Positions 8,630 to 52,689 of a stretch of DNA of 64,000 nt are shown piece after piece. Each line of letters begins with the position of its first letter. Position 1 is the stretch's first letter. Below the pieces are notes generated by a model. The model searched no databases, was not told the DNA's origin, and was given only the letters and a program-made list of their open reading frames with translations. Made by a program: the position numbers and the translations under genes. This DNA is from Chrysophaeum taylorii. Lineage: Eukaryota; Sar; Pelagophyceae; Pelagomonadales; Pelagomonadaceae. The stretch spans positions 62,001 to 126,000 of the forward strand of contig JAQMWT010000344.1 in assembly GCA_029834535.1 (NCBI GenBank), given 5' to 3'.

Positions 8630-10978
8630 CTAGGAGGATGAAGTTGGACGTGTTGTTACATTGCGTAGAGAAGCGGCATCCACAACGTCAGATGTGTGGT
8701 CCAACTCATCATCACTATTGTCTTCAAGTTTTTTTAATTCTGGAGAGGAAGAGTCATGATCTTCGGGTTGGTCGTTAGAAGCATTGTTTATAGTGATTGC
8801 ACCACTGAGAGCGACCAGGGGTGCCATGACAGAAGATAGATAGGACATAGCTGCGTCCGGTGTTAAAGTGTGCAAATCTGCTGCAGGAATAACATGATCC
8901 TGAGCATCAGACATAGCGGTATATAAGTTAGTAGCTGTATCGTCGATTATAGTTTGCTGTGCCTCCTCAAACTATTTGGAGGAAACTGTCCAATAGACGA
9001 GATAAGTGATTTCGAAATTATATGAGCAAAGACAGCAAGGGTAGACAACGTAGTATCCTGGTGCATTTGATAGCTTGATAGTATATTGTCTAAGAGCGAG
9101 ACATGTTTGATGTTCTCGGTTACTTGCGCGTTAAGAGTGTCGTTAGCTTTTTTTAACTGAGTTATAGTTTTCAAGGCATCAGAGAGTTGTTGATCTCGTT
9201 CTATCGATTGCTGATCACTCTTGGCGATATGCGAAGATAGAGATTGTACTTCTTCTCTTAACTGACGCAAAGATTCAATTATATTGTCATTAAGTTCGTC
9301 TGGCGTAGGTTCGACTGGTGCAGGTTTTTTATCCTCAGACAATTTAGTGTCTGAGAATGCGTCTATTATGGCAGAGGGATAACCAACCTGGATCAGTACG
9401 TTCCTGAAGGCGGTTTGATGCTCAGGTGACAGTTTAAGAAAGTAGTCCAACATTGGCGGTAACATCTCGTGAGAAGTGTCATTAAGCTGGTGAAAGACAT
9501 CGTTAACGAAACTTTCAATGAGCACAGCAAGTAGCTCATCAGGGTTGGTCACGACACAGACTTTATCTTCGACAGACTGTAGTAATGACCAAGCCGCTAC
9601 AAGAATTTCAAGGTTGACAGTCGAGATATGAGGTGGCTGTAGCAAGAGGGGTGCATGATCGTCCGGGTTCACGATGATTTTAGAAGCATTAAGGTTGTGG
9701 GTAGCCATACATTTCATGAGCGCCTCTTTAAGCAGCTTGTTAATTGTAATGGATTTACCCAAACGTATAATGATGGCTCGCATATGTGCAGCTGGATCAT
9801 TATGGCATGAAAGGTGAAACGACTGAAGACTATTCCTAGTTAATGCTGTCCCATGCTGTGACAAATTACACATGACACAGATCAAAAGGGAAAATGGACA
9901 CGGTACGTCGAAACAATGCGAAGCATGTTGTTCCGAGGCTAAGTGGCCTTCGATGATTTTAATGATTTTATCCGTTTTGATTTAGTCTTCCGTGCAAATG
10001 GCGAGTACAAGGGGCGTACCCGGCGCATCGGTTTTATTGAAGCTTTTCGTGCACATTACGTGTACCTTGAAAACGCCTTTAATGGGTGGGTATCGATGCA
10101 ATCGAATACCCTCGTTTGCCGGTATGTTAGGAGCATTACGTACACGCTGCGCCTTTAGACACAGTAGAGAACTCAGGAAGTGGAGGTTGTCAATGCAGTT
10201 GCGTTGTTGTGTCTCAGTAAGTAGCTGTTGGATGGACTGATGCGAACATTGAGGATTCTTAGGCGACGGTAGCAAGAAATTAGGTGGCTGTGTACCAAGC
10301 GAAAGAACGTTCCCAGACATCATCGCCATAACATCGAATTTACAATGCTTTAAAAGAAAGTATTCTGTGTTTGCAACATGAGATTTAGTATGATGTTGTG
10401 TTGCTTGTGACGTGGGAGTCACTGGGGAGGACTGATTTCCTTGAGCAGCAGAAAGATACGTTTGGTGTTTACGATTGGGAGAGCCAGTAGGAGCAATTCC
10501 TGGATTTAGAGCATTAAACGGAGAAGATAACGAAGATATGCCGCCACGTCCACGGTTTAATACAGAGTAACGTCGGTTCGCAGCGTCCTTTATGATCGCC
10601 GACTGCGGTTGCGATGGAGGACGGTGCCTCATGAATCCTGAGCCTTGCGAGGGCATCCGCCCTCCCGGCGTACGTTGGCACCTATTCGCCTCCCGGGCGG
10701 GCCGGTTGGCAGCCGGAACGTTCGCAGTGGGACGGGGTATGGCCGGGGGGCGAAGACGGAAGGTTATCGACGAGTTGGTTGTCAGTCACATCGCGGTCTC
10801 CTCGTCGCATGGCGACAAGCTTGATGATCACTCTCCGCTGACCGACCTTTCGGCGCTCCTCGTCTACAGGCCCGTGATTCCGGACTGGCTCCTGTCGGTC
10901 CGGCCTGGCTCCCATGCTCGGGAGAGGTCTGAAGTTAGTTAGTTAGTTAGCAGCGTCCTTGGTCTTGGCAGGATTCAT
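8630..10978 (-). pseudogene. Third ORF of element B: zinc-binding / coiled-coil protein downstream of pol
   Basis: The original start is probably the ATG at 10976-10978, 78 bp after the pol stop. Its first nine codons join in frame to sequence below 10581 once the SINE-like insert and duplicated target are ignored. The frame then runs to 8947 with one in-frame UAA (9982-9984), followed by a frameshifted tail (8914-8630). Features in order: Arg/Gly-rich start (RGRGGISS), low-complexity spacer, a CVMC...SCHNDPAAH signature (CxxC, Cys, six residues, His), then a coiled coil rich in Leu, Gln and Lys. Element C has a homologue in the same place. It may be a displaced gag-like nucleic-acid-binding protein; the function is inferred. 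Confidence 0.65.
10581..10960 (+). mobile_element. SINE-like retroposon with TTAG tail and 10-bp target duplication
   Basis: The element spans 10591-10950. CAGCGTCCTT occurs at 10581-10590 and again at 10951-10960, a perfect target-site duplication. The 3' end is GGTCTGAAGTTAGTTAGTTAG. Related copies lie at 27088-27342 (+) and 50585-50872 (-, no tail). The last 75 bp or so, including a GGACYGGCTCCTGYCGGTCC hairpin, are shared with longer LINE fragments at 42087-42359, 56421-56465 and 58936-59105, which suggests it borrows that LINE's machinery. No clear A and B boxes were recognised, so the SINE label is tentative. Confidence 0.75.
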
Positions 10979-11056: not shown

Positions 11057-14000
11057 TTAAGCATCTTGCTGGGCTATGGGTTGTTGTAAACCAAGTAACG
11101 TGCGAAATCTAGTGAAAAGCAGAGCACCAAAGGGCTTGGTGAATCCATCAGCGATATTCTGAGTGCCAGAAACATGATGTAAGCGAATACGTTTTAGGTG
11201 TACGTAATCACGAATACGAAACCAGCGTGTGCTAATAGCTTTGGCTTTAGTCGCACTGTCAGGATTATTTGATAGATGGATAGCAGAAGCAGAGTCTCCA
11301 AGTATAGGACTGTTACGCATAAATGACATGTCTGATGGGAGAGGGTTGTCACGAGCATCATAATCTAATAACAAATCTTTCCCTGGAGGTTGGCGAAGAT
11401 AGTAGTGCGGATTTATAGCAAACGCCATTTCCATTAACAATTTGCGTAACCAGACCACATCATCAGCACACATATTAAGGGCGATAAGTTCACTCTCATG
11501 CGTGGAAGTAGCTGTGATAGGCTGTAGTTTGAACTTCCAGGTGATGAGGGAACCGAACAAAAAGATGGCATAACCAGTTGTAGATTCGCGGTCTTGTTCA
11601 TAAGAGGGTGCTTTATCAGCATCGACGAACGCGACTAGTGGATCAAAATTACCTGAATTCACTTGTTCTTTAGTGTAATCCAACATGGATGCCATGTCGG
11701 TACGATTGCCGATGAGATGTCTAAGATGGTCCATTAGAGCGGAAGAACCAGAGTAGTACCATAGTCGAAGATTACGATTTTCAGGCTTGCGCAAATAGCG
11801 AAGAGTTCCTGTTAATACTTGGACATGCAAATATGCTGGATTATGCATTCCTCGGGAACAACGACTAAGGCTTTGTGATAAATCAGGGCGACAGGTCAAC
11901 TGCACAAAAGGAAGCTTGGCAAGTAAGGTTGAAAAGGTGTGTTGGATGAAATTGTCCATATCAGAAGATGGCTCTCCAGTTTTATACGTGGTTGAGGGGG
12001 ACATAGGAGTGGAGGTAGGACGTAACTGCGTTAAAATGGGATACTCTTCAAACAATGCATCAATTTTAGCTTGACAGTCAAGTGAGATGGAACCATCGGT
12101 AGTGCGAGTTATGCGCATACCTAAGAGAGTATGAGCTTCTTCAAAGTTTTCGACCGAGTATTCCTTCTTCATGGCTTGCTGGAATTCACGACGTAGACTT
12201 TCCGATGTACAAGTGATAACAACATCATCCACTGATAGCGTACAAAGTAAAAACGTAGCATCAGCTTGGACTTTAGCATAGATGCATGTATCTGTTCGAA
12301 AACGTTTATAGCCTAATGCGTCAAAGAAACCATTTATGGTTTGGTTCCAAAGGGCAGGACTCTGTCGTAATCCATAAAGAGATTTAAGTAGTTTTGGGAG
12401 ACGTCGTCCTTGATATTTTACATCTTCAGGATCGAGTAGGTAAATACCTTGTGGCAGTTTAACATAGACATGAGAATCTATGGGAGCTTGAACAAAAGCA
12501 TTAGGAACGTCTATGTGGTAGACGGGAAGTCGTAGGTGGGCTGCAAGCGCCAGAACACAACGGATACCAGTGAGCTGCGCCATTGGGCTAAATGTGTTTA
12601 AAAAGTCAGTGCCCAGAGAAGCTAAGAATCCTCGTAGGACCAATCTCGCTTTATGTTTGATGTATTCACCGGCAGCATTGGTTTTTATACGTAATACCAG
12701 TCGGGTATCAATAGGCTTGGAGTTGACCATAGGCAACGAGAGTTTAAAGCAGCCAAACTTAACAATGTCAAAAATCTCCTTGGAAATAGCGGAGATATAA
12801 GCCTTACGATCAGCGTCAGAGAGACCTTTGAGGCAGGTCAACTCATATTCATCAATCTTGATATCTTTGGCTTGAATTTTATATTCGTCCGGACCAACAG
12901 TGCTGGGATCTTGAGCGTTGGTAAGATGGATGATTGTGTAAGAAGCGACCATATCGTTAGTGTGAGCGGGATCTGGATCTTCGACAAGTTGAATAACTAG
13001 TAGAGGGTCATCTCCAAGGTGTGCATCAATGTAATGAGACTGCACGGTGATGTAGTCTTCGATGGCGGAGAGGTGAGGCTCGGAGGCACCATAAGAAGCA
13101 TCATTATGATCCAAAATAGAATGGGGCGTTAGCAAAGCATAAGCATATTGAGCGGGAGGAACTCGAAAAGCTTGAGCGTGTTCGGAAATGAGATGAACGA
13201 GAGCACGAGGAAGGTGAAAGTCTGCGAGGCTGAGGTCGTCGAGGAGATGAACAGGAGTGGCATCCGTCGACGGATGGCTAAGGCTCCTATGACACATATC
13301 AGAAGAAGACTGGAATAGCGCTTGGTAAACATGATGATGAAGAGGTTGTGTAAATTCCCCCTCTGGAGGTATAGCCGTCCAGTGGATGCCATGAGCAACA
13401 TGAAGGGAGTGGAGGGTGGGGTCGCAGAAAGTTATATACTGCTTGGAGAGGTCATACTTGAAGTCAGCAAGCGTACCACCAGCTTGTTTATAAGCGGCAA
13501 CGGTTGGCGAAGCAATACGAATGAGGACAGCCTTGAGATTAGTCTTGCGACGAGGTTGAGGGTGATTAGGACCACGGGTGAGACGAAGGACATCCTGAGA
13601 ATAGAGAGACCGATAGGGTGGTAAAATGGGTAAAGTGTTGGAGGACACTTCAGATGCCGGAGGTGTGGCGACAGAAGCAGCGGGTGCAGAAGCAGCGGGA
13701 GCACATGCGGGAACGGGAATAGGAGCGTGGGCGAGAGACGAAGGAGTCCCCCTCTCGTGTTCAATGTCGGTGGACATAGCATTCCCCCTCTGCCCCGCAG
13801 CACTGGGGGTGCTGTGAACAGAAAAGTGTATGTCGGGCGAAGGTGCGGGTGGGGGATGGTGTTCGTAATCAGGAGGAAATTTAGAAATGAGATGAGGAAA
13901 GGTAAGTTTAGAAGAAACACGGACTTGGCCGTTCTCAGGATTAAGGACAACATCAGCTAAGTGGTTAACATGGGGTGTGATTAAAGGGTTTATGACATTA

Positions 14001-15337
14001 GCACCACATAAGTAGATATAGGGACGACATCGAGGTTCATAATTATGAAATTCATTAGATTCCAGATGCAAATAACAAACAGAACCAAAAGGTTTCAGGT
14101 AATCTTGTTGGGGAACATTACATTGATCCAACAAAACTTGTTGGGGGCTTAGGACTTTATTATGAATACGTTCGAGAGAAACATTAGGAAGGAGATTATA
14201 CGATTGAACAGCATGTATAACAGCCCACGGGTAGTGTGGTGCCGGATCTGTTAGGGGGTGACCTTTATAGGATACATTAAGCATATGCCGGAGTCGTGTA
14301 GACGCAGCAGTTGCTATATGACCAACAGCGGCTTCTACTTCATGATTAAACACATGTAAGTAGGGAGGGAAAGCAGACATATTAATACCATGTTCAACAC
14401 GAAAGGGAGTAGTAACGTGTTGAGATAAATAGGGTTTAAAAGAATCACAATAAATTTGTTTTAATTGTACATGAACATAGGTGGAGCAAAAGTTGCGAAC
14501 AAACTCGAGGGCATTACAAAATTCACTGGCATTGGTGGTACGACAAAAGTACACTAACAAAAATTTAGAAATGAGACATTTAAAGACTATGATGTGGCGA
14601 AAGGAACCCCATTCAGATAGGACAGATACGTAACCACCATCACATGCCCAGGCTTCACCAGGTTGAAAAACTTTTTCAAATGAAGGTTGCTTGGTAAGAT
14701 GATGTGGATGAGGAAAACGTTTTTTATGTAAGCTACAATCCACACAAAACTTACGGCAGGGCACATCTGAAGGATGATGTCCCGGACTGGCAATAACCTG
14801 AGCAGCTTTTAAAGCTTTGGGATCACTAGAATGATGAATATTGTGAAAATTGGTAGCACGTCGCTGAGCATCTCGAAAAGCGAGAGTGCCTCTGGCATGG
14901 ACTTTTCTGTCAAATGAAGCAAGTTTTTCATGTAACTGCCTTGGCGTTATGAGAGGAATATGTTTCGGTTTTGTAGGAGATGACGTATCTGCGGATGAGA
15001 TGTTAGATAAGAAGACGTGAGCCACTGAATCGAGATGAAATAATGGAAGTTCGTGGTTGGAAGAGATGTTGTCACAACATTGGAAGACTTTGTTAGAGAT
15101 GTATAACATTGTGATAGACCTCTGGTTTAATATTAAGGATGTGTCAGTGGGAAATATGTTTGTGAAAAAGGTTGACCTATAGTTTTTGGTTAGAGAAGCG
15201 TGATCAGGGCCAAAGGATGGTGATAACGTTAATTTACGCAAATCATAGACAATCTGACACAAATGTGTATAAATTACGTAATAGGTTCCAGCCGGAATAG
15301 CATTAGCAATAATGTCACAGCAAAGGTCCGGGGACAA
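11057..15337 (-). CDS. Ty1/copia pol polyprotein (integrase, reverse transcriptase, RNase H)
   Basis: 1,426 codons without a stop. Residues 1-40 are still methyltransferase: motif X is DIIANAIPAGTYYVIYTHL. The integrase has an HHCC zinc motif (His around 165-188; C194, C198, C201) and a DDE triad at Asp233 (WACDGGYVS), Asp298 (YCDSFKPY) and Glu333 (NHEVEAAVG). The reverse transcriptase has IDVPNAFVQAPID, LYGLRQSPALWNQ and the catalytic LSVDDVVI box. RNase H of copia type follows (FVDADKAP, ESTTGYAIFLFG, STHESELIAL, GDSASAIHLSNNP, IADGFTKP). Domain order integrase before RT fixes it as copia, not gypsy. No clear aspartic protease was seen; LDSVAHVFLSN (102-112) is at best a degenerate one. Confidence 0.93.
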   Translation of the reverse strand: MSPDLCCDIIANAIPAGTYYVIYTHLCQIVYDLRKLTLSPSFGPDHASLTKNYRSTFFTNIFPTDTSLILNQRSITMLYISNKVFQCCDNISSNHELPLFHLDSVAHVFLSNISSADTSSPTKPKHIPLITPRQLHEKLASFDRKVHARGTLAFRDAQRRATNFHNIHHSSDPKALKAAQVIASPGHHPSDVPCRKFCVDCSLHKKRFPHPHHLTKQPSFEKVFQPGEAWACDGGYVSVLSEWGSFRHIIVFKCLISKFLLVYFCRTTNASEFCNALEFVRNFCSTYVHVQLKQIYCDSFKPYLSQHVTTPFRVEHGINMSAFPPYLHVFNHEVEAAVGHIATAASTRLRHMLNVSYKGHPLTDPAPHYPWAVIHAVQSYNLLPNVSLERIHNKVLSPQQVLLDQCNVPQQDYLKPFGSVCYLHLESNEFHNYEPRCRPYIYLCGANVINPLITPHVNHLADVVLNPENGQVRVSSKLTFPHLISKFPPDYEHHPPPAPSPDIHFSVHSTPSAAGQRGNAMSTDIEHERGTPSSLAHAPIPVPACAPAASAPAASVATPPASEVSSNTLPILPPYRSLYSQDVLRLTRGPNHPQPRRKTNLKAVLIRIASPTVAAYKQAGGTLADFKYDLSKQYITFCDPTLHSLHVAHGIHWTAIPPEGEFTQPLHHHVYQALFQSSSDMCHRSLSHPSTDATPVHLLDDLSLADFHLPRALVHLISEHAQAFRVPPAQYAYALLTPHSILDHNDASYGASEPHLSAIEDYITVQSHYIDAHLGDDPLLVIQLVEDPDPAHTNDMVASYTIIHLTNAQDPSTVGPDEYKIQAKDIKIDEYELTCLKGLSDADRKAYISAISKEIFDIVKFGCFKLSLPMVNSKPIDTRLVLRIKTNAAGEYIKHKARLVLRGFLASLGTDFLNTFSPMAQLTGIRCVLALAAHLRLPVYHIDVPNAFVQAPIDSHVYVKLPQGIYLLDPEDVKYQGRRLPKLLKSLYGLRQSPALWNQTINGFFDALGYKRFRTDTCIYAKVQADATFLLCTLSVDDVVITCTSESLRREFQQAMKKEYSVENFEEAHTLLGMRITRTTDGSISLDCQAKIDALFEEYPILTQLRPTSTPMSPSTTYKTGEPSSDMDNFIQHTFSTLLAKLPFVQLTCRPDLSQSLSRCSRGMHNPAYLHVQVLTGTLRYLRKPENRNLRLWYYSGSSALMDHLRHLIGNRTDMASMLDYTKEQVNSGNFDPLVAFVDADKAPSYEQDRESTTGYAIFLFGSLITWKFKLQPITATSTHESELIALNMCADDVVWLRKLLMEMAFAINPHYYLRQPPGKDLLLDYDARDNPLPSDMSFMRNSPILGDSASAIHLSNNPDSATKAKAISTRWFRIRDYVHLKRIRLHHVSGTQNIADGFTKPFGALLFTRFRTLLGLQQPIAQQDA

Positions 15338-16446
15338 AGACAGAAGAAAATTAATTTGGTGCGCTGTGAAGTTATTGGCGCGTGCCAGTTCGCGAGTTGA
15401 ATAATGTCGAATGCGATTAAGCCGTGGATCTTAAAGGATCATGTTAGCAAATCCACGAATAGTGGGAGTTGGGGTGTGTATAGAATGAACTTTGGCGCCC
15501 ATCTTTCTATCACTGGATGTGATGAAGCCAAGGTACCTGCTTTGAGACAGATGCATGTCACTCAAAGCAAAAATTTTATCGATGAACTCAAGATGATTTG
15601 TCTTTGGATAAAAGATGAAAGAATCATGAAGCACAGGTGAAGTGTAGGAAACCAATGTTTGCACGAGACGACGGGTGTCTTGAGTTTCATTATGATGGTG
15701 ATAAGCTTGGCATAACCAAAGAAAACCCGTAACAGGATTGAGAGAAGTAGTCTTATCAATTCCTGTATCATGTGTTTGCAAGATGTAGGTTTCCCCAAAT
15801 GCATTTATGTGAGCCTGGTATTTAGAAGAGGAGTTAGAAACTATGATGTCTCCACCTGTGTGTCTTCCACTAGTGATGTAAATAATGGAGGAAGTAGATG
15901 ATTTATTTAAGATTAACCTGTGGGATGGTTGGTTAGATTCGATAGTTGCAATACGAAAAGACACGGGTAATGTAGTAGAATTTGGGAACAAGCGTCCCAT
16001 AATGTTATAGAGGATAACAAAAGCCATGAGCTCAATAGGAGAAGTCATACATGTGAGGGGCTTTCTTGAATTCGTTAAGAATCCTAGGCGAAAGTTAGAA
16101 ATGCCCTCCATTTCGTCTTGACTTGGATGTTCACTTGTTTTATTTGAATGCAAACGGAGAAACAGCATGGTTAATGTCTCTAGCTCAGTAACCGTTGGGC
16201 GAACGGATCCTGTGCGACTGAAGCTGCTGTTAGTTTTGGGCATGGAAGCGAATGGTATATCCGAGAAGATCTGCGTCCAGGGTTCGTCGACAATTAACTT
16301 GCGACTGATGGAGTTAACGTGATCCGCAATGTCCAGGAAGGAAGTAACTCGCTTATTAGGCCAGGAGAGCAAATTTAAAGGACCGGTATTATATTTGCGA
16401 GCAACAAGGATCCATCTTTCTCTGGCTTGATAATCTCCACACAGGT
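15338..16446 (-). pseudogene. C5-cytosine DNA methyltransferase, C-terminal half, in frame with pol
   Basis: Same frame as pol, interrupted by one UAA at 15431-15433; the matching position in element D is a sense codon. Visible parts: motif VIII (CGDYQARERWILVARKY) at the truncated 5' end, a long target-recognition-like region, and motif IX (YSTRELARANNFT) leading to motif X inside the pol ORF. Motifs I-VI, including the catalytic Pro-Cys, are missing because the LTR of element C cuts the gene at 16446/16447. The nominal frame begins inside that LTR, so no native start exists. Identification rests on motif order and on element D, where the catalytic half survives. Confidence 0.72.
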
Positions 16447-16761
16447 TGCAGAGCATTAGCAAGCAGTGGTAAGTAACCTGGGAAACCACCCCGTCTCATC
16501 ATGAACGTCTGGAAGTATTTAATTCGGGGAATGAAAAGGTATGTTCCCTATATCCTCAGAACACGACAGGCGGCATCTAGAACTACACGAGAAAGGTAAA
16601 GTGTATAGTGCTACATACCTCGGGACGCGCTAGACCATGATGATGAGCGTAAGCACAAATCAGAGGACTATTTGATTGTGTAGAAAGGAAGAAGAAGGGG
16701 TAAGGAAGAGATCACGTTCTCAACGGACGGATAAGGGTAAGAGGCAGCAGATTTCTCTGCA
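16442..16761 (-). repeat. 3' LTR of element C, abutting element B
   Basis: Minus-strand LTR of 315 bp (16761-16447). It begins TGCAGAG, right after a CTCGAGGGGG polypurine tract, and ends CTGCA, giving TGCAG/CTGCA terminal inverted repeats. The next five bases, ACCTG (16446-16442), are the candidate target duplication. It matches the plus-sense solo LTR at 26851-27409 and the LTR at 35308-35559. Confidence 0.75.
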
Positions 16762-16922: not shown

Positions 16923-18900
16923 TTAGGACTTGGACTTGGTGGAGTTGAGAGTCGACTTGACGCTTTTAAACAGAGCATTACGAAACACAGGTACAACAGA
17001 CAGTGTGTTGCGGCTATCTGAGGTGGCGGGCATCGTTACTGGTTCGAGGGTATCGGTATCTTCTTCGTCAGCTTCTGCTGTCAGGTGTTGAACACCAATA
17101 GCAGAATGGTGTGGTACCATACGAAACATGAGTGCAAGTAAAGCATTCAGTAGGGATGGCACTAGTGAGTCAAGTTTTAGGGTGTCCAGTTGGTTTTCCA
17201 AGAAGTTGGACTCAGCGAACGGATCCGAGAAGATAGAAGAGTCTTCCGATTCACATGCGAAGGGAATGCTTTGAATACACGAGAGCAAATTATCACGCAG
17301 ATGATGGAGGTGATCGTCCGGGGAGGAATGGTTGGCGGCATATTGGTCATGAGCTGTAAGAGTTAAGCGAGACAGTAGCTCTGTGATCTTGAACAGTGTT
17401 ACGAGCAACACGTGTGCATTGGCTGTAGGAGGAAAGAGCCGGTTCTCCAGGGAGGTAATTGAAGCAATGGCAGCCTGCAGATCTGTGCGCAGAGATAGAT
17501 TCTCAGCGCTGAGGGTGTTGACCTTGCGAATATGTAGGCGAAGAGTTTCCTGGAGTTGCTCGACTTGTTGACGCAAGGCATCGACATCATCAGGCGAGGC
17601 AGAAGGAGCAGGGTGTGTCGATGGCGAAGACATTTCCAGAGTAGATTCTGATGTGGGGAGTGAGTAGTTTAATGACGTTTCGGTCAACACATGCTGTGCA
17701 AGTAGGGGGTATTTTGTGTTTAGAAATTGCAGAAAGTCTTGATGTTCTGCCAGAGTATAGGTGGGGCCGAACATTACATCCAAGAGTGATGGCGGCTTTG
17801 TATCATCTGAGGATGATACGTAGTCGTCAAGGTGTTGTGCCCACGATTGGACAAAAGTATTAATCACATGATGATATTTGGTGGGTTTGAACATAGCCTG
17901 AGTTTTACGAGCCTGGGTTCGCACGAGAGTTACAAGAAAGTTAAGATGCTCCAGGTGTATCTGAGTAACAAGCCGAAGATCCAGTGCGAATGGCAGTTGA
18001 GTGGTGGAGTCTGTGGCTGCATCGGTTACTGATAACTAAATGAGCAAGTGACGGGTGTTGCGTTAGACTGCTAGTCAAGAGAGTATGTAGCTCCTTTGGC
18101 AAATGATACGTGCGTATGATGGTTGCGCTTATATGACCAGCTGAGCACCCATCACAGGAGGGTTGGAAGGAAGTAGCATTACGTGCACATACGATAGGTT
18201 GTATGGGCACCTGATCGGTGTTGTGACAAGCGCAACAAATGTTTATGGTGATAGTTGAGATGGGGATGTGACCATTCTTCTTATGGTCATCTGTGTTGAG
18301 GTGACTCAGCACTTCAGTTGGGAGTTCACGAGGTGCTTGTGACTTCGAATTATATGTGGTGGAGGCATGAAATGTAGGTTGCCCCAAATCGTTGAGGCAT
18401 TGCGTACAGTAGGATGACAGAATGAAACGTTCACGTTTGGGGCCTCTGTAGCTGCCAATAGAAGCAATAGAAGGAGCAGCTTCCCAAAATGTAGTAATGG
18501 GTAGGCGCATGGATATGAACGTTGTTAGTTCCACAAACAGTGAAAAGTCAGCAGATTCATAGATCGAGTTGAGTGCCGTAGAGATTTCCGCTCGCATAAA
18601 AGAAGAAAGGGAGTAGCAGGGGTACGGAAGTTCTCAGAGTCCTCGTTCAATCAGGGCAAAATCCATGTTGAGGCCATCCTGGAGTGTTAGGGATTGTAGT
18701 AAAATATGTTCAGCTGGTGTCGGTGAGACAGTAGCTGCCTGGGAGGTAGCAGGAGTGACAGTGGCTATGGGTTGTCGCTTTTGAGACAACTTGGGAGAAG
18801 GCTCGGTCGTGGAAAGCGAGCGTGGAATTGTCCTTCGAACGACTGGAGAGATGCCACGGCCACGGCCACGGGAGTGCCAAGAAAACGACATGAGCGACAC
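16923..18900 (-). pseudogene. Third ORF of element C: zinc-binding / coiled-coil protein
   Basis: Lies between pol and the 3' LTR of element C, the same position as the third ORF of B. It starts with an Arg/Gly-rich stretch (HSRGRGRGISPVVRR), then one in-frame stop near 18634, then a region with YCTQC and a CCAC...SCDGCSAGH signature, a conserved ATIIR segment, and after a frameshift near 18040 a 333-residue coiled-coil part (LRQQVEQLQETLRLHIRKVN) ending in a Ser/Lys tail. Similarity to B is modest but collinear. No known domain recognised. Confidence 0.65.
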
Positions 18901-18997: not shown

Positions 18998-20431
18998 TCA
19001 ATCCTGTAAAGGAATGTCGTCAGAGGCATGATGCGTACCGAGTAGAGAGCGAAAGGTGGAGAACTCAGCAGCAAGTGGCTTTGTAAAACCATCCGCCACG
19101 TTCAGCTTGCCGGGAACATGATGGACTCGTATTTTCTGTAGCGAGATGTACTCACGGATTTTAAACCATCTGGTCGACAGTGCCTTGGATCGAGAGGACC
19201 CATCTGGGTTATTAGAGGTGTGAACAGCGGCAGCATTGTCAGACAAGAGAGGTAGGCTTCTGATGAAGCGCATATCTTCAGCAATTGGGTTGTCATTGTC
19301 ATCGAAGTCGACAGGGTCAGCGGTGTTCTCTCCATTAGCATTGTTGACGTAGAAGGTGGGGTTGACGACAAAGGAGAGTTCCAACAGCAGCTTGCGTAGC
19401 CAAACAGCTTCATCAGCACAAATACTGAGGGCAATCAACTCAGCTTCGTGAGTTGAGCAGGAGACAATCGGTTGAAGTTTGCTTTTCCAACCAATAAGGC
19501 AGTTGAAAAGATAGAAGACAAACCCGGTGGTAGATTTCCTATCTTCCTTTGCTAAGGAAGGGGCGTTGTCAGCGTCAACCATGGCAACTAAGGGGTCAAA
19601 CTGTCCAGTTGATACATCCTGCGGTTGGTAGTCGACCACAGTGGATAGATCAATTCGATTAGCGGAGACAGTGCGAAGGTGAGCTTCAATGGCGTTACCT
19701 TTAGGATGGAACCAGAGGCGAAGTGAGCGGTTTTCCGGCTTCTTGAGGTAGCGAAGCAAATGCTCTAGCATTTGGACGTGAACATACGTGGGTGCATGCA
19801 TACCACGCGAACATCTGCCCAAGGCTTGCGAGAAGTCAGGTCTGCAGGCCACTTGCATGAACACCAGCTTGCCAAGGAGGGTGGCAAAGTGCGAGTTGAT
19901 GTACAACTCTGTTTCAGAGCTGGGAGTGCCATCTATATACTTGAAGGACGAGGACATAGGATATTTAAGCGGAGTTAATTGCTGCAAGACAGGATGATCA
20001 GCGAAGAGTTCATCAAGCTTGGCTTGCACATCCAGAGAAATGGGTCCATCAGATGTGCGACTCACACGCATGCCTGGGAGGGTATGGACAGGTTCAAACT
20101 GCTCTACAGCATACCGTTTGTGGAGGGCATCCTGTAATTCTGTACGAAGAGGGTCGTCATTGGACACAATAACAATCCGCAAGCATTCAATCTTTTCCTT
20201 CGACAACCGACATGGCGAGAGTTTGGCGGGAGTCGGGTTCTCTTCTTTAAACCGGAGCGTCACTTCAGGTGAATCAACAGGTCTCATCACATCATCGAAA
20301 GTTGCCCACGAATACGAGATTGGATGCTTCATCATCAGCTTCTCGTCATCATCTAAAGCAGGATGCTCAGTAATACCCAACTCAGTCATCACCTCTTCGA
20401 CCTGCGCGACGGTCGGAGGGATGACCTGCAT
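18998..20431 (-). pseudogene. Chimeric ORF: start of a different RT fused to a copia RT/RNase H end
   Basis: 477 codons, open throughout. From about residue 92 to the end it is copia: IVIVSNDDPLRTEL, HTLPGMRV, FVYLFN-type RNase H core (STHEAELIAL, LSDNAAAVHTSNNP, VADGFTKP). Residues 1-90 are unlike copia; NPTPAKLSPCRLSKEKIE resembles the segment just before the fingers of Ty3/gypsy reverse transcriptases. The join is near 20160, where identity to element D's copia sequence stops. It follows element E in frame, separated from its methyltransferase by one UAG (20435-20437) and one Ser codon. Best read as truncated element C joined to truncated element E. Confidence 0.7.
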
Positions 20432-20434
20432 GCT

Positions 20435-21797
20435 CTACTGATCCGCTAAATGAGGAGGCATCACCGGTAAAGGTTGACCATGTTCGTCGTGACGCGCGTC
20501 CGCCCACGGAACGTCGTACTTATTGAAATGCGCAGGTCGCTCCTTCGCGGTGCCTTCTTCTTCAGCAGTTGCGGAGGGCTGGTTGTTGGTTGGTTGCTCT
20601 GCATAGTGGCGACGGTGCCCCCTGCAAAAGATTGAGCCGTCCCAGGCGATGTAACCGAAGATGGTGGCGGGGGCAGCAGCTGATGGAGCAGGACTCGCAG
20701 GAGAGTAGAGTTCATCGGGCGAAATCCATGACACACTTCGAGTGGCAGGGTCAAGCGTTGGAATGCGCGACTCGACAGCAAAGGGTGAAAACCGTAGAAT
20801 ATGGTGATCGGGTTGGGCTATCGTAGTCGTCGCAAAATTCCGCAACTTACCCAAATTTCGAAGTAAAGGGTCGAACGAATTGTGCACTGCTAGCGCGATC
20901 CGCGTCATAGTCGCGGGTGGCACCATACTGCCAAGCACCTTCATAGCTGCTGTCTCTGAGACTTTGGCGCCCCATTGCCACGTAGCAGGAACGGTCATAA
21001 TTTCCTGGTGCATCTGCAACGTGAGTGGACGGGTATGCGAGAAGTAAGGTCCTAGGTGGAGCTTATTGCGCGTCACCGAGAAGGCAGGGCCGATAGCCGG
21101 GCGCGTAGATGAGAAACTGTTCACTATATGAGCGGGTGACCACCTGTAAATCCCAACGCTGGCCCAAAACGGACCCGTAAATTCGGTGGTACACGCGATA
21201 ATAACGGCAGTACCAAGCGAACATTGCAAGCAAGTAGGCGCGTGCGCGAGCACAGCAATTCTGGTGTAAAACTATAAAAATCGACAATGCGCGGCACATA
21301 AAATTGGTGATGCACAAAAGGGATCGCTGATGGTTCCTGCTCGAGCGTCCATCGCCCAATTACATAAGGTGCGTTGCGGAAATGACGCAGGACCCAAGAA
21401 GTAATAGTAGCGCCCTTGCGCGCGTCCCTGTAGTGCAAATTGGCAGTCGAGCCATAGATACAAGGCGGACTTGCGTGAAAATAAGAATGCTTCCAAAAGT
21501 CTGAGTGTAAATACGACAACACCAAGTCGTATGTACGACGATGAGATTTCCCCAGCTCACGCAAAATATAGGGGATCATTGGAAAATTGGCACAAAGGTG
21601 GCGCGGGCTTGTGGACAAGCATCCAAAGCCAAGACAATGCGAAATGAACTGCCATATAGTTCACTGCATCGCCGGATACCCAACGTTGATCCTCCAGCGC
21701 CAGCAAAATAGACGACGACAAAGGTGTAGGTGATGGGTATCCAAAGCAAGGAGGCGTGCTTAGATAGCAGCTCCTTAGCAGTCGCTACCATCTCCAT
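20435..21797 (-). pseudogene. C5-cytosine DNA methyltransferase of element E (two frameshifts)
   Basis: Three overlapping frames carry the motifs in the right order: motif I VVYFAGAGGSTLGI and motif II VLALDACPQAR (21797-21576), motif IV FHASPPC with the catalytic Cys, a motif VI-like WTLEQEP and motif VIII SRTRLLACN (21618-21240), then motif IX TRPLTLQMHQEIMTVP and motif X LGSMVPPATMTRIALAV (21250-20880). A C-terminal extension (FGYIAWDGSIFCRGHRRHY) leads to a UAG and then the RT-like frame. Two single-base shifts, near 21590 and 21240, suggest a dead copy. It is clearly different from the B/D enzyme. The reaction would be 5-methylcytosine formation on DNA. Confidence 0.78.
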
Positions 21798-26536: not shown

Positions 26537-26845
26537 AAGAAAACAATACAAATGCCTGGTACATTGGGTTCAGTGGAAGCGCAGGTGAGGGTGTCAAGGT
26601 GACACCCCCCCCATAATGGCAAGGTCAGTGCCAGGTGGCAGGCAGGCAAGTGGGGGGATGGGCGTTACTGCCACAAGCGAACGAAACGTAGCAAACTCGT
26701 CTGCAAGCGGCTTGTTAAAGCCATCCGCCACCTTTAATTTGCCAGGGGCATGATGGACTCAAATTTCCTGTGGTGCCACATACTCGCGAATTTTAAACCA
26801 ACGCGTAGAGAGAGCTTTGCTACGAGAAGAACCGTGGGGGTTGTT

Positions 26846-27414
26846 GGGAGTGCAGAGAATTCTACCCTATTCCGTCCGTCGAGAACGCGATCTCTCCCTT
26901 ACCCTTCTTCTTCCCTTTCACACAAACAGATAGTCCTCCGATTTGTGCTCACGCTCTTCATCATGGATTAACGCGTCCCATAGGTACGTAGGATTACATG
27001 TTAAACTAGGTGTAGTCCTACGTGTCTGTCGTGTGCTGAGGCTAGGGAACTAACCTGTTCCCTGAACTTAACCTGTGCCAGACTCACACGCGGGCCGGTT
27101 GGCAGCCGCAACGTTCGCAGTGGGACGGGGTATGGCCGGGGGGCGAAGACGGAAGGTTATCGACGAGTTGGTTGTCAGTCACATCGCGGTCTCCTCGTCG
27201 CATGGCGACAAGCTTGATGGTCACTCTCCGCCGACCGACCTTTCGGCGCTCCTCGTCTACAGGCCCGTGATTCCGGACTGGCTCCTGTCGGTCCGGCCTG
27301 GCTCTCATGCTCTGGAGAGGTCTGAAGTTAGTTAGTTAGTTGGACTCACTCGGTGAGACGGGATGGTTCTTCTGTGACTTTATACCACTGCCTCGCGGAA
27401 TACACTGCAGGAAG
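26846..27414 (+). mobile_element. Solo LTR inserted in the RNase H region of element D
   Basis: The LTR runs 26851-27409 on the plus strand, opposite to D, starting TGCAGAG and ending CACTGCA. Flanks are GGGAG (26846-26850) and GGAAG (27410-27414), a 5-bp duplication with one mismatch. Internal sequence matches the LTR of element C (ATTCCGTCCG, GAGAACG, GATTTGTGCT, TTCATCATGG). About 255 bp of it is a nested SINE-like insert (27088-27342). Removing it joins D's RNase H coding sequence. Confidence 0.82.
27081..27349 (+). mobile_element. SINE-like retroposon, 5'-truncated, nested in the solo LTR
   Basis: Copy of the 10591-10950 element lacking roughly its first 105 bp. It ends in TTAGTTAGTTAGTTG-type tail sequence and is flanked by GACTCAC at 27081-27087 and 27343-27349, a 7-bp target duplication. 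It is very similar to the 10.6 kb copy, which suggests recent activity. Confidence 0.8.
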
Positions 27415-30400
27415 TGTGCAGAGCTGCGGCATTGTCAGAAAGGACTGGCATGCTTCGGGTGAAGCGCATATCCTCTGCAATAGGATTGTTATTATTATCG
27501 AAATCAGCTGGGGGATCCTCATCGGCATGAGTATTAATAAAGAACGTGGGGTTAATCACGAATGAGAGCTCGAGCAGGAGCTTACGGAGCCAAGCTTCCT
27601 CATCAGCACAGATGCTCAATGCTATGAGCTCCGCTTCATCCGCTGAGCATGAAACGATCGGCTGCAGTTAATTCTTCCAAGAGATGAGGCAATTGAGGAG
27701 ATAGAAGACAAACCCTGTTGTGGATTCCTATCCTCCTGAGCCAGGGACGGCGCGTTATCTGCGTCGACCATAGCGACCAAGGAGTCATATTTGCCGGATG
27801 CTATTTCCTTTTCCTGATAGTCAACCATGGTAGACAGATCGACTCGATTGGCGGAAATGATGCGTATGTGATTCTCAATCGCATTCTCTTTGGGGTGGAA
27901 CCAAAGGCGAAGTGCTCTGCTCTCGGGCTTGACAAGATAGCGCAGTAGGTGCTGGAGCATTTTGACATGCACGTAAGTTGGTGAATGCACTCCACTAGAA
28001 CAGCGTCCCAAAGCCTGCGAAATATCCGGGCGGCAAGCGGTTTGCATAAATACAAGCTGGCCAAGTAGGGTGGGAAAGTGGCCAGAATATAAACTTCGAC
28101 GTCAGTGGTAGGGGAGCCATCTTTGTAGGCAAACGCTGAGGACATCGGGTATTTTAGTGGCTTCAGCGTCTTCAGGATAGGATGATCCTCGAAGAGCGAA
28201 TCGAGTTTTGCGTGGACATCTAGAGATAAGGAACCATCACAAGTACGGCAGACACGCATGCCCAGGAGAGTGTGAGCTGGGTCAAATTGCTCTACAGAGA
28301 AACGGCCATGGTGGGCTTTTTGAAGTTCCATACGTAGTTCATCATCATTGGCGACAATAATAATATCGTCCACAGACAGACTGCAAATAAGGAAGCGAGC
28401 TAAAGCAGTAACGCGCACATACAGACAAGAATCTGCCTGGAGTCGCTTGTAGCCTAGGCCTTGGAAGAACCTATCGATCTCCTTGTTCCATAGCGAAGGC
28501 GATTGCCTAAGGCCATAGAGGGACTTTATCAACTTGGGTAAGCGGCGGCCGCGATATTTATCGTCTTGCGGATCAAGCAACTTGATGCCATCGGGTAGGT
28601 GAACGTCGACGTGCGCGTCGATGTCGGACTGGACGAAGGCGTTCGGCACGTCGGCGAGGTAGACGGGGAGGATCTTGTAAGCAGCTATGGCTAGGATGAC
28701 GCGTATAGCTGTCATCGTCGCCAGTGGACTCCAGGTGGGGAAAAAATCCACACCAAACGACGCCACGCAGCACAATGCGCACTTTGTGCTTGACGTATTC
28801 GCCGGCAGAGTTCGTGTTGATCTTGAGTACCAACCTACTATCGATTGGATGAGTGGAGCTATCAGGTAAGGACAGCTTGAAACATCCAAAACGAACTATG
28901 ACGTGAAGCTCTTTCGCAATCGCCTTGACGTAGGCTTATCGGTCTTCAGATGCGAGTCCTTGCAGACACTTGAGTTTGTACTCATCGAAGTGGATGTCAG
29001 ACTCTTGGACCTTGTATTCATCAGGGCCTATGGTTGAGAGACACCCATAGTTTAACGAATTTTCGGTCGAGGCAGTGTACAACACTTCAGGATAAGCGTG
29101 TGCAGAATAAGCGGCGAGAATAGATGAGTCAGTTTCCAGATGTACCAAGAGGAGACGCACCTCGTGGAGAACCTGAGTAATGTACTCAGTGGAAAAGAGA
29201 AGGTACTCCTCAAGGTCAGTCAAAGAGGAAGATTTAGAACCATATTCAGGTGATGACCATGAGGTGTTGGAGTTGTGGTCGATAAAGCTAGACGGTCTCA
29301 GGTAAGCATATGCGTACTGTAACGGAGAGACACCAAAGGCAGCAGCATGTTCAGCGAACATGGCAGTAAGTGACGATGGAAGTGGACGAAAGAGAGTTCC
29401 ATCCGCAGTAAGGTGAGTAGACACTGGAACGCTGGCAGCACATTGGTTTGCGAGAACACACCATCAAGCAGAGGGTCGCGAGACAGAAGGTCGGTGCGTA
29501 ATGGGAGAAGGTGTTGAACAAGCAAAGCCTGTTCCCCCTCTGGGCTGAAAGTTGCCCAGTGAATACCACCGGAGGTGTTGAGGGTGGAGAGGGTCGGGGA
29601 TTTAAAATCGAGAAAGCGATGCTGAAGATCCCATCGAAAGTCAGCGAGTTTGCCACCCGCGGATTTATACGCACCAACGTTAGGAGCTTGAAGCTGAGCT
29701 GTAGTGGAAGCCATGGACGTGACTTTGCGCTGGTTGGGGCGGCGAGAACCTGGGACGAGTTCAAGGTTATCTTGAGCAAACAGATCCTCGTAAGAAGGTA
29801 GCAGTGGTGGTGGTGAGAGAGTATCATCATCGACGGGTGGAGAAGTGGTAGTTGGAGTATCAGGAGGTGACTGAGACGAGGACGGAGCGGCTGCGGATTG
29901 AGAAGGAGATGAAGGAGCAGGCGTAGGAGGTTGCCCCCTCTGAGTATGATTCCCCCTCTGCAACGCATTATCGGGGTTATCATCTCGATCGGGTGTGACA
30001 GCGAAAGGAACGGGTTGAGCATCAGGTGGAGGAGCATGTTCAGGATCGAGCGTGGAGCGTTTGAGCATGTACATGAAGATAAGCTTAGACGAGACACGGA
30101 TCTGACCATTTTCTGGGTTGAGGACGATGTCAGCACGAAGATCAACATTTGGTGACACAGGAGGGTTCTGTGCATTTGCACAGCAGAGGTATAGATACCT
30201 TCGGCGTGAAGGTTCATACTTGTGATGTTCATGGGGTTCCAGTAAGAGGAAGCATTCACTGCCGAAGATCTTGAGGAGATCATGCTGAGGGGTAGTCAGC
30301 TGATTGTAGAGGAACTGTTGAGGACTAACGATTGCATGGTGAATGCGCTCGAGAGAGTTACATTCGGTAAGATGTTGCATGACTGGACAGTGTGGATCAC

Positions 30401-31219
30401 CGCCTACGGAAAATGAACGGCAGGCTCCACAATTTTGGCACCGCGGTAGTGCACGTTGAGGAGGTTACGAAGGCGGGTAGATGAGGCCGATGCGATAAAA
30501 CCTATAGGCTGCTCCACCTCGTGATTAAACGAGTGAAGGTAAGGTGGAAAGGCGATGAGGTTAATACCTTTGTCAACACGGTACGATGTGGTGACATGCT
30601 GACTAAAATACGGCCTCAAGGCGTCTGAGTAGACTGTGCGCAAATGTACGTTCAGCTCTCAAGAGCTTGCGTGAATTCGGTTGCGTTGGTAGTACGCGTG
30701 AAGAACGTGATGAGGTACTTTGACAGTAATTCTTAAAAAAAAATAATGTGGGTAAAGCCGCCCCATTCAGAAGGAATGGATACGTACCCGCTATCGCAAG
30801 CCCAAACTTCACCAGGCTGATGGGTTTGTTCAAAGTTTGGCTTGGTGGGGTTAAAGTGATCGTGTCGGTGCTTCTTGTTCTGGAGCATACAGGCGGTACA
30901 CTCGTCGCGATATTGAATGTCAGATGCAGAAAAGCCAGGACGAGCAAGTACGTCAGGGGCTTTGACTGCAACATTGTCCGGACAGTGATGCGTACGATGG
31001 AAACGGTTAGCACGTTCTTTGGCATTCTGGTGCTGAACGGTGCCTTGCGAGGAATCGCTTTGACGGAAACATGCTTTAACCTGCGCGCGCAGAATTTTAG
31101 TTCAGTGCGAGGATCCTAAGAAGGAACGTTGTCAGCATCTTCGGAGGCGTCGTCAGCATCAGCATGTGAGGTCGCAGAGGTACGTGTTTCTTCGGGTGCA
31201 TTTTCCGTAGAACAGTAGT

Positions 31220-33744
31220 TTAACGACATTCGGCCCAGCTTCTGCAGGCAATGCGACTCATAAATGAGTGCGCTTGAGTGATAATGTCACTGCTGTCATT
31301 GAGTTGAGAAAACTCACGGGTGATAAAGGTAAATTCATAAGTCTGGTGGCGCATAGCAGCATCATGCTGAAAATTAGGGGACTGCATAAGCGATTTCATG
31401 TCGAAGACTATGCGGCACAGGTGTGTATACCGTAGATGGTACGTGCCAGCCGGTAAAACATTAATGAGCATATCATAGCAAAGGTCACTCTTCAAGGAAA
31501 GCAAGAAGGACGCCTGAGCACGTGTGTGATTATTAACTCGAATGAGCTCAGGGCGCGTAGAGTATCGGAGTTTGCCATTGCGAGGGTCGAGTAGAATGAT
31601 GTTTGCGTATCCACGTATAGAAGGCAAGGGACCAAGCATGGAGTGGATCTAGGAACCTAGCTTGCGATTGCTGTTTCGCAAGTAACCAAGGTAGCGACTG
31701 TGTGATAAGTGGTAGTCTTCTCACGCGAAATGCTTCTCTTTAAAGCATAAGCTGTCGGTCGCAGGATCATATGTCAGACAGTGCGGGAGAACTAGATTGC
31801 AGTTGGCAAGAAGATGCTTAAGGGCAAGATGGTTGCCTTGAGCAGCATCGACCTTTGGGTAGGCCTGTACAAGCCAAAGATGGCCTTGGAAAGGCGCCAG
31901 GTACATGGACTTGTCGTCATATGGTTATCGCACGACATCAGAGTGTATGTCGACCCAAAAGGATCAATCGACGCTTTATACTTGTTGGATCTATTTTCGA
32001 CAAGAAGATTACCGTGTGAATGTTTACCTCCGGTGAGGAGGTAGATGTGTGAGGAGGTACATGTTGTGTTTTGTTGAGGAATTTGTGAGAAATAACCTGT
32101 GTGCAGGTTGGTTAGTTTCGAAAATATCGTAACATAATAGGACACAGGAGCTGGAGAGTTAGGCAGAAGCCTAGCGAACACATTATAAAGGATAGTGAAG
32201 GCCTTAAGTCGAACAGGATTGAAGAAACTGGGCATTGGCTTGTTAGAGTTACGCATGAAACCTAAATGATGATAGGTGCAATCAGGATGCGAGTTATGCG
32301 TGAGTTATTCCAATGCTTGTTGTGAGTGGAGCCTGAGAAACAAGAGATTTAGAGTTTCAAGCTCAGTCATACTCAGCCGGACAGATCCTGTACGAGAGAA
32401 GAGTGGAAATGTCTTAGGAGAAGACACAGTTGGAGGATCTGGGTAAACTCGTACCCAATCCTTGGCAAGATCTTTTGATAGCCAAAGAGATTTCGGGCAG
32501 AAAGGTCATCTGCAATATCCAGAAAGTTCTTAGCGTGTTGGTTGGGCCAAGATAAGATGTTTATGTTGCCCGTGTTATACCTGCGGGCAATGCATATCCA
32601 CCGTTCTCGGGATTGGTAGTCGCCACAGAGATAGGTGGGAAATCGATCGACAACATCGACAGAATAGTCAAGAGTGGCAAGTATCAAGTTAGCAACGGAG
32701 ATATGATCACGATGTACCTGCTTGTTCGGTGGCGTCATTTCAGCCAGTAGCACAAGGGGCTTGTGCAGCTGTATAACAGTCAGCATACTGTCGAACAGGG
32801 CGTCATCAAAAAGTCTGGGCAAGTCAGACGTTTTTGTGTGCTTCAAGAGTTTACGGTTGGTACATGGAGGTGTGATCTCCGTTATGTCACAGTAAAAAGA
32901 ACGCCTCAACTCCTCCGTGATGGAGTGAATATGGTTAATGAAGGACGGCAGGGATTGGAAAATCAACACATGCGGAAACGGTCGACGCAACATTCTCACA
33001 AGAGTATCATCAGACTCGACAACAAGATTCACATTGATGTTCAAGTTTAAGTCATTATTGATTTGTGAGAGAAACGCAGGGGCTGATGGGCCGGAACACA
33101 ATAATATGACAGAGGGGTTTACGGGATTGACCATTTTCAACGGAGAGGAACACTGGTCGAGAATGTGGTTGTGCTGGCGGAGTTGTGTCCTTACGCACAA
33201 GCTCGTGGTTTTGCCGTATGTTGAACAACAGAGGGCGGAGCCACGGTCGCGACGGCAGTTTACGCATTAGGTATGCGTAATATTGCAATATGTCGCGATT
33301 CTCGTTATAGCGTTTGAGCGGGAAAGCCAAGGAATGTAGCTCCATATTCCTATCACGAGCAAGAGTGTAAGGTAAGCAAGGTAACGCGGGCAAGTCGTGG
33401 TCAACTAAGTGTATTGGGGCCTTGACGTCCTTATCAATGGCACTTGTGACGTAGGAGGTATTTGGGCTCTCACTACTATTGAGCGTGATGGTCAAATGCG
33501 CCTTCTTCCACTCTGGGGCAGAGAGCATGAACGAATGGCGACCTTTCACAGGTTTTAAGAAGAGTGCGTAGTCGATCTTGACATAACCTATTTCAGGGTG
33601 AGATGGTAGTGGTGAGACAATCATCATAGTTGACATAATATGCGAAACCTGCTGATGACCTGTGGCGGTTTGAACAACGGGAGCGATTTTCGGGTCGACA
33701 GGGACAATGTGAGTAGGCATCGCGAAGTCAAAAGTTGTCATCAA
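31220..33744 (-). pseudogene. C5-cytosine DNA methyltransferase of element D
   Basis: The fullest copy of the B/D enzyme. An N-terminal domain of unknown fold (33744-33055) precedes a frame at 33200-32373 with a motif I-like VILLCSGPSAPAF, motif IV EITPPC (Cys codon about 32864-32862, the expected nucleophile), a motif VI-like VLLAEMTPP and motif VIII CGDYQSRERWICIARRY. Frames 32256-31792 and 31639-31220 give the recognition region and motifs IX-X (YSTRPELIRVNN, LINVLPAGTYHLRYTHL). Frameshifts near 33100, 32300 and 31750 inactivate it. Motif order and the PPC and QxRxR signatures support the call; motif I is weak. Confidence 0.72.
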
Positions 33745-33757
33745 CGATATATAACTA

Positions 33758-35279
33758 TCAACTATCCAGGTATATCAATTGAAAGCGCGGAGGAAGTTTA
33801 TGGTCCCGCATATATTTTGAAAGAAACGCATTTTTACTGTTGACACTGGTTGAAAATATGCTAGCTGCGAACAAGCTGGGCTGTTCCAATAGCTTAGGAG
33901 CAACAATGACTCTAGTAAACTTTGTAGGAGCCACGGGAGCAGTGGGTTCACCATTGTCAACACCGAGACCATTCTGAATATCGAAAGGCGAGAGTCCAGC
34001 ATTCGTAGGTTGCGTCTCAGACATGTTAGGCTGGGCCGTGTGTGGTGATGGACTGTGGGCGCGGCACATGGCAGCTGTGACACGATTAGAGGATATTTGA
34101 AGTTGTTCGGACGGCAGCTGCGCAATAGACTCTTCAGTGAAGTGTACGGGCACGGCAGAAGTAGAAGCGGCGGTAGAGTTTCCATCGGAACCAGTAGCGT
34201 TAAGAGTCGAGTTTGGAACAGAAAGAGTAGATTGCGCTGTCCCATAGTTTAATGGCGTTTCGATTGAAAGCAGATGTGCGAATACGTCATGGACGATGTC
34301 CTCTGCGTAATCTTGTTGCTCGTTAAGCCGGAGTACTTCGGTATTATCGTCAGAAGCACGTGTAGTGATGATGTCCGCAGATTGCAACAATGTAAAGTTT
34401 ATCAATGTTGTCCTGCAGTTCCGTGGTGGTTGCGTTATGAGGAGCATGGTGCGAGAGCTCTTTGTAATGCCCTTTAAACGCATTGCCTATATGTTTAGTG
34501 CGGTCAAGCAACTTCATAGCTGATCGAGCTGGGCGATCGAAGGCGCGTACACCGGCTTGTCATTAGATTGTCCAGGACCATGAAGGGGCTTGGTAACGTA
34601 AGAGTTACCAGGGCGAAAATAAGTTATAGATCACTGCGAGCAAAACGTCGGCTCGAGTCTTAGGGATTTCGCAGGCGTCTTGGATTGAACTGTTGTCTAG
34701 ATGTTCCAGTGACCGCAGATGTGAGAGAAGTAGTCACATTGGCAGTATGGTCCAGTTCAGTATCCGTGTCATCGAGCAGTTAAGAGAGAAGCACTTTTGG
34801 CTTCTCGTGGGTCGACAGACCTTCCACATAGGGAATCGAGGAGACTGGAGGTTCCAAGCGCCTTTTATCTTCGGTGTTGTTGGAAACAAGAGTTGTAAAG
34901 GTCCTTGGCGAATTCCAAAATGTAACGCGAGTCAGACGGGTGACACAGCGTCTCAGAGTCAGGTTGTGCTCGAGGGGATGACCGAGTCTCATATAAGATG
35001 CACCGTTCAGTCCAACCTCGATCATAGCGGTTGTACTTGGGCTGTTCGAGAAGTGCTTAAAAACTTCTTCATAAACCTTCCGACACAAGGTCGACTGATC
35101 GAACTGAAGATCAGTTTCTTCTGGATTAAGCTGATAAGAAAGATGCCTGAAGATTGCGCACACTCAATAAAGTCATGCACATACCAGTTAGGATTGTATA
35201 CAACAGCATTAGATTGCTGTTTCAAGTACGCGACATCAGCACTGCTAACAGTTTCAAAATAGTTATATGCTATTAACAT
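33758..35279 (-). pseudogene. Gag-like region of element D
   Basis: Frames 35279-35022, 35163-34780 and 34483-33758 lie between the 5' LTR and the methyltransferase. The last has a Ser/Thr-rich linker and ends a few codons before the methyltransferase domain begins. No capsid or zinc-knuckle motif is recognisable; the gag label rests on position. Confidence 0.45.
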
Positions 35280-43520: not shown

Positions 43521-43622
43521 TCGCTCTCGTGATAGCGATGGCCACGGCCTGAAAAGGAAACTGCGTCCGTTGAGGCTGTGCCGGCGGGGTCATTGCCAGA
43601 AACAGTACCGCAGGATCATCAT

Positions 43623-44708: not shown

Positions 44709-44779
44709 CTTTAATTTTCGCCCTCACCACTAAAATTTTCTCCTTCACCACCAACGGTCGTCTTCTTAACTACTAATCG

Positions 44780-48680: not shown

Positions 48681-48714
48681 GCCCAACTTCGAAATGTCGG
48701 CCCTACGCCCGTGA

Positions 48715-52310: not shown

Positions 52311-52360
52311 AAGAGGGGTTTCGAAGGGGTTGTGGAGAGAGGTGAGGTGACAGAGTGTGG

Positions 52361-52672: not shown

Positions 52673-52689
52673 GAGGGAAGTGCGACACG

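Follow-up and report, generated by a model that had tools for sequence, protein, structure and literature searches.

Decayed Ty1/copia retrotransposons with a predicted C5-cytosine methyltransferase in the pol frame in Chrysophaeum taylorii

Retrotransposons bearing a DNA methyltransferase (DNMT) have been reported as SymbioLINE, SymbioDIRS and KnitGypsy, that is, as long interspersed nuclear elements (LINE), DIRS and Gypsy elements; according to the same source, no copia element of Symbiodinium has a DNMT domain, and DIRS-borne DNMTs methylated CG in yeast (PMC5890265). Analysed here is a window of 64,000 nucleotides from the single-celled marine alga Chrysophaeum taylorii (GCA_029834535.1, contig JAQMWT010000344.1; C344:62001-126000 of the surveyed assembly of 70.8 Mb and 697 contigs), in which two copies of a Ty1/copia family, B and D, carry methyltransferase sequence in front of the integrase. 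It is considered rather probable that B and D are decayed copia copies with a pol-borne C5-methyltransferase that is maintained by selection and predicted to methylate the element's own complementary DNA (cDNA) or its target.

KnitGypsy-Dnmt3 of Klebsormidium nitens (de Mendoza et al. 2018, PMC5890265) resembles B and D in being of the long terminal repeat (LTR) class, in carrying a C5-methyltransferase within Pol and in the purifying selection reported on that domain; it differs in its Gypsy reverse transcriptase (RT), where B and D have a copia RT, in its charophyte host and in the assignment of the domain to Dnmt3. SymbioDIRS-Dnmt3 and SymbioLINE-Dnmt are, as here, a case of one algal genome (Symbiodinium) with numerous DNMTs on retrotransposons, and the yeast-active SymbioDIRS-Dnmt3 has its DNMT in Pol, as B and D do, whereas the elements concerned are of the tyrosine-recombinase or LINE type (PMC5890265). 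Ty1/copia elements (Pseudoviridae) occur in ochrophytes, for example CoDi in diatoms and Copia in Ectocarpus, and the available text of their descriptions, unlike the sequence of B and D, mentions no C5-methyltransferase; the Ectocarpus paper does describe a DNA methyltransferase, located in a Sola DNA transposon and predicted to be of the 4mC/6mA type. A search of the open-access literature without preprints yielded no report of a C5-methyltransferase in a copia element, nor of one in this domain order (PMC5890265, PMC9998398, PMC3145265, PMC10449503, PMC12477816), a possible exception being one sentence of PMC12344493 that names 'LTR Copia and DIRS' as DNMT3 carriers, with no element, species or structure in the text available, and that cites the 2018 paper (PMC5890265), whose LTR element is called Gypsy. 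With this reservation, the suggestion of an earlier note on this DNA that the fusion order may be new in copia holds, and DNMT appears to have a new carrier in copia; what is new is that the carrier is copia, that its host is a stramenopile and that the domain precedes the integrase. DNMT capture was previously seen in LINE and DIRS elements of dinoflagellates and in Gypsy of one charophyte, and a copia case in a stramenopile, with the domain just in front of the integrase in many copies and kept by selection, would mean that such capture happens repeatedly and benefits the element in a further superfamily and a further supergroup. In this small algal genome (70.8 Mb), what a retrotransposon gains from methylating DNA may be approached by setting families that have the domain against families that lack it.

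Copy B is encoded entirely on the minus strand and comprises the following features, listed with its flanks:

16533..16761, no strand assigned: repeat adjoining the 5' end at which B is truncated, with further occurrences at 26863-27060 (inverted) and 35432-35559
16495..15434, minus strand: upstream frame of 354 aa, in frame with pol, with motif VIII and the target-recognition region (15434..16465)
15431..15433, minus strand: TAA inside the methyltransferase, before motif IX, private to B
15430..11060, minus strand: pol frame, 1457 aa, stop-free
15287..15409, minus strand: methyltransferase motifs IX-X, within the first ~70 aa of the pol frame, at motif level
14848..14735, minus strand: HHCC-like motif of the integrase, followed by D 14650.., D 14455.. 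and E 14350.., assigned by motif order
12700..12215, minus strand: RT, with 'SVDD' motif and RVT_2 match
11584..11135, minus strand: RNase H, by motifs
8950..10590, minus strand: second conserved open reading frame (ORF) downstream of pol, in two frames in B, with a coiled-coil-like end

The copia pol of B, which the earlier note called intact, is an open frame: the 1457-aa frame matched RVT_2 at E 4.5e-43 in Pfam, with SH3_retrovirus (E 0.0017) and rve (E 0.014) both below their curated cut-offs. Integrase D, D, E and then RT 'SVDD' follow in the expected order along one frame, with the integrase upstream of the RT and the RNase H downstream, and the RT-RNase H part is collinear with a Taraxacum copia polyprotein, to which the integrase did not align. 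In the same frame lie three motifs that we take, by the usual nomenclature, to be methyltransferase motifs VIII (LCGDYQARERW, 16412-16444), IX (RHYSTRELARANNF, 15368-15409) and X (IIANAIPAG, 15287-15313), the last two inside the pol ORF, in agreement with the earlier note. The methyltransferase which that note placed upstream of pol is present in B as motifs VIII-X; motifs I-VII are missing. Since matches of other copies begin only at residue 10 or 11 of the 354-aa frame, or later (~16465), B is read as truncated at its 5' side with motifs I-VII gone, and because of this loss and the nonsense codon B alone would be unable to make the enzyme. Upstream of B, a coiled-coil-like ORF (16926-18035, minus strand) shows 46% identity to a stretch downstream of pol in a related locus (L023); it probably represents the 3' end of a different element, the one on which the truncation of B abuts.

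Copy D, which is diverged, spans 33.8-26.7 kb on the minus strand with the following features:

33739..33771, minus strand: copia-protease-like motif TWIVDSYISLM, upstream of the methyltransferase, at motif level
32376..33131, minus strand: methyltransferase N-half with motifs I (33110..), II (33026..), IV (TPPCTN, 32873..), VI (AEMTPP, 32750..) and VIII (CGDYQSRERW, 32627..), in one frame
31226..32481, minus strand: target-recognition region and motifs IX-X (31564..31445), in shifted frames
26666..31074, minus strand: remains of integrase, RT and RNase H, with a match gap (27410-26845) occupied by other repeats

The 354-aa frame of B is collinear with D 32630..31592 (E 1.2e-50), and B pol resumes at D 31588, one codon on. 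Judged from their reading frames, neither B nor D is able to make an enzyme. The UAA at 15431-15433 had been described as the only separator between a methyltransferase and pol; a single TAA does stand there, and it cuts the methyltransferase before motif IX instead of parting two modules. At this site D has CTC (31591-31589), the sense codon that had been claimed for it. The B family was sampled as 30 loci, of which L001 is window copy B itself; 22, L001 among them, passed the coverage filter for reading the stop site and 8 did not. TAC was found in all 21 other readable copies (the 300-base alignment of four of them has gaps at other positions). The UAA is therefore a mutation of copy B alone, and with sense codons in its relatives the methyltransferase and pol are in one frame across the family.

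This arrangement recurs in the genome, for which match counts are lower bounds that include the window copies. B pol gave at least 45 matching stretches (32 of 3296 candidates scored), the N-half of D at least 150 (150 of 951) and the C-half of B at least 123 (115 of 1244). In 24/30 B-family loci (L001 included) pol is preceded on its own strand by the C-half, and L005 and L030 among the remaining six have it listed on the same contig; because of this recurrence and the collinearity with D, the upstream frame of B is not a chance frame. When 150 N-half matches were paired with the 150 best of 1670 RVT_2 candidates, 41 pairs had the RT 3.5-6.5 kb downstream (median 4237) and none upstream; with the top 40 of the 123 C-half matches, 12 pairs had it 2.5-5.5 kb downstream and none upstream. 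Pairs were in frame in 17/41 and 7/12 cases, respectively. On contig C42, the match listing gives one open-frame length, 1691 aa, for both N-half and RVT_2, at an offset of 4242 = 3 x 1414; L018 holds most of the C-half, the integrase and part of the RT in one 1354-aa frame, and the frames of L006 and L022 stay open between motif I and a point past motif X. That the fusion arose by chance at a single locus, through nested insertion or assembly error, could be proposed from the truncation of B against another repeat at ~16465-16533; it is contradicted by the same order in the 24 B-family loci and the 41 N-half/RT pairs, and its chance is regarded as negligible. By frame and motif order, the methyltransferase is placed directly upstream of the integrase in the pol polyprotein, and probably downstream of the protease. 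The order methyltransferase-integrase-RT-RNase H in one copia frame, as put forward from the window, with the UAA as a late accident, is borne out by many genomic copies, by significant relatives of the methyltransferase and by purifying selection.

The assignment of the domain to the C5-methyltransferases was reached through relatives. A significant DNA_methylase (PF00145) match in B or D, which the earlier note had named as its test, was not obtained: B had no such match in Pfam, and D (13.3 bits, E 0.056), like L006 (12.9 bits, E 0.074), scored below the cut-off of 22 bits. With direct matches below this cut-off, the domain is linked to DNA_methylase significantly only via other proteins. 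A profile of four family rows (A1), two of whose four members matched DNA_methylase (best E 0.037), was searched in a database of 5.8 billion sequences and matched the transcript-derived proteins P0031 (E 2.9e-88) and P0032 (E 4.7e-19); against DNA_methylase, P0032 gave E 1.2e-10 and 41.8 bits, over the cut-off, and P0031 gave E 4.4e-4 and 20.2 bits, slightly short of it. The N-half profile (9 rows) matched the profile of a second copia family of the same genome (28 rows, described below) at E 1.2e-8 in hhalign, with 0/100 column shuffles scoring as high, and the IX-X region matched that family weakly (E 0.006, probability 6%, score 19.7 against 18.5 for the best of 100 shuffles). In a Foldseek search with the AlphaFold model of P0031, the titles of the 33 best rows all named C5-methyltransferases (from E 2.6e-7). 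A chance resemblance of motifs VIII-X in a frame that is no methyltransferase would accord with the weak or absent Pfam matches listed above, to which L022, with its full methyltransferase, adds none at E <= 1, and with the lack of a convincing methyltransferase match among solved-structure sequences; it is contradicted by the path from the profile through P0032 to PF00145, by the hhalign match to the second family and by the Foldseek rows, and is held to be very improbable.

PCQ in motif IV and ENV in motif VI are usual in C5-methyltransferases; the B/D lineage departs from this, with EMT as motif VI of all five aligned rows and PCT as motif IV of D, L006 and L022. These deviations, together with the long motif VIII-IX region (>300 aa) that is under purifying selection and the position next to the integrase, would fit a domain that has lost catalysis and binds DNA or RNA within the polyprotein, perhaps to aim the integrase or to bind the cDNA. 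This alternative is thought unlikely: all 5/5 rows share C-x-G-x-S in motif I, Pro-Cys in motif IV, Glu in motif VI and GDYQxR, with its QxR, in motif VIII, and the second copia family has retained PCQ and ENV.

Selection was estimated as dN/dS by the Nei-Gojobori method between copies, with three pairs of infinite dS set aside. Ratios were 0.05-0.13 in the methyltransferase regions and 0.13-0.14 in integrase/RT; unsaturated methyltransferase pairs were L006-L011 (dS 0.53, ratio 0.05) and B-L018 (dS 0.38 and 0.28, ratios 0.13 and 0.10), while pairs with L022 had dS 1.25-2.0. On these few copy pairs, the sequence comparison shows the methyltransferase to be kept by purifying selection along with the integrase and RT. 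If B and D derive from elements with an active C5-methyltransferase, the polyprotein would be packed in the particle, where the methyltransferase could methylate the element's own double-stranded cDNA, or else the target at insertion; a new copy would then arrive pre-marked, so that it might not be treated as foreign or harmful, or might be silenced fast at low cost to the host. The coupling of methylation to integration that the earlier note foresaw would be a hypothesis of this kind. Copia elements prime with transfer RNA (tRNA), and this counts for a different substrate, in which the enzyme would methylate RNA (genomic RNA or primer tRNA) and not DNA. RNA methylation has been suggested for SymbioLINE (PMC5890265, text available), and DNMT2 and DNMT6 are tied to RNA in the accessible text of PMC12344493; this alternative is considered distinctly improbable.

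In addition to the missing Pfam match of L022 and the PCT and EMT motifs, several observations weigh against a DNA-methylating copia enzyme in B and D. The AlphaFold models are of low confidence (D pLDDT 53, P0031 pLDDT 44), Foldseek with the D model returned no row at E <= 0.001, and the VIA rows for P0031 were tied with other class I methyltransferases. SymbioLINE and KnitGypsy enzymes showed no activity in the yeast test in which the DIRS-borne ones were active, a result called inconclusive by its authors in the text available (PMC5890265). Most family copies are broken, as only 17/41 N-half/RT pairs are in frame and open-frame length is identical in only 1/41. The CpG observed/expected ratio was 0.83-1.08 in elements and 1.13-1.25 in host stretches; among five loci at least 90% identical to B pol, C/T differences fell on 127/817 CpG sites versus 542/5122 others and G/A differences on 70/760 versus 135/2776. 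This is the pattern that some CpG methylation would leave; it is mild and names no enzyme. As to completeness, the class of the elements is assigned as copia by RT, with RVT_2 in B and in the second family, and the protease was seen at motif level alone (TWIVDSYIS in D, LIDGGASF in L042/L047 of the second family): the D frame with the protease-like motif had no Pfam match, and no Pfam protease was found in D frames or in the second-family members scanned. The window repeat lists held no LTR pair for B or D, the fetched loci not having been searched for LTRs, and, as to gag, the D frames upstream of pol matched no family.

Downstream of pol, an ORF of at least 474 aa opens ~75 bases past the pol frame and was matched in 27/30 B-family loci; it was located at L004:2-1423, L007:5715-7136 and L012:2-1423. 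No Pfam family was found for it above cut-off, and it might represent a gag that has moved to the 3' side.

Further methyltransferase-bearing elements were found with the PF00145 profile, which gave at least 57 genome matches (123 of 474 candidates scored), sampled as 30 loci (L031-L060). Of these, 28 (L033-L060) constitute the second copia family, and only L031 and L032 carry DNMTs outside retroelement families, that of L032 (E 7.9e-18) lying in a 2086-aa frame (844 aa read). The second family has in frame order the protease-like LIDGGASF (L042/L047), a methyltransferase with PCQ and ENV, and then NAVP; its methyltransferase matched PF00145 at E 2e-8 to 5e-8 (four members scanned). In L047 a frame of 1952 aa holds both methyltransferase and RVT_2 (E 5.9e-40), the latter read from 901 bases whose frame begins 4956 bases (3 x 1652) after the frame start; the integrase of this family was seen at most in part. 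The methyltransferases of B and D gave no tblastn match to the second family, and B pol matched one of its members, L054.

A third element type is represented in the window by a fragment, C:

20192..21660, minus strand: methyltransferase with ASPPC (21448-21474) and VLGSMVPP (20909-20938), then an RT start that we take, by resemblance, to be Gypsy-like, then a junction to copia RT

The methyltransferase of C scored E 0.02 against Pfam, below cut-off, and its C-half had at least 147 genome matches (139 of 1018 candidates scored). Methyltransferase of the C type and RVT_1 are in frame with equal listed open-frame lengths on C345 (1812 aa), C225 (2129 aa) and C311 (2115 aa). On a quite tentative reading, this one ochrophyte genome has three separate retroelement stocks (copia B/D, copia L042/L047 and RVT_1 C) with polyprotein C5-methyltransferases, in hundreds of copies that far outnumber the other DNMT loci (2/30 fetched). 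They would be the host's main source of such enzymes and would methylate their own cDNA ahead of integration, and they may set its methylome.

The host itself is placed by its voltage-dependent anion channel homologue (VDAC gene, 42576-43589) among ochrophyte algae, probably as a pelagophyte: the gene product is 58% identical to that of Pelagophyceae sp. CCMP2097 and 45-51% to those of Aureococcus, with nearest relatives at up to 74%. The window also contains, at 44700-57600, repeats with AGGTGAACTTACTGG and CTAACTACTAATCGACAGATG units. Two further repeats, 10697-10948 beside the 3' end of B and 27090-27341 within the RNase H gap of D, are 98% identical and, on that identity, belong to a recently active repeat family.
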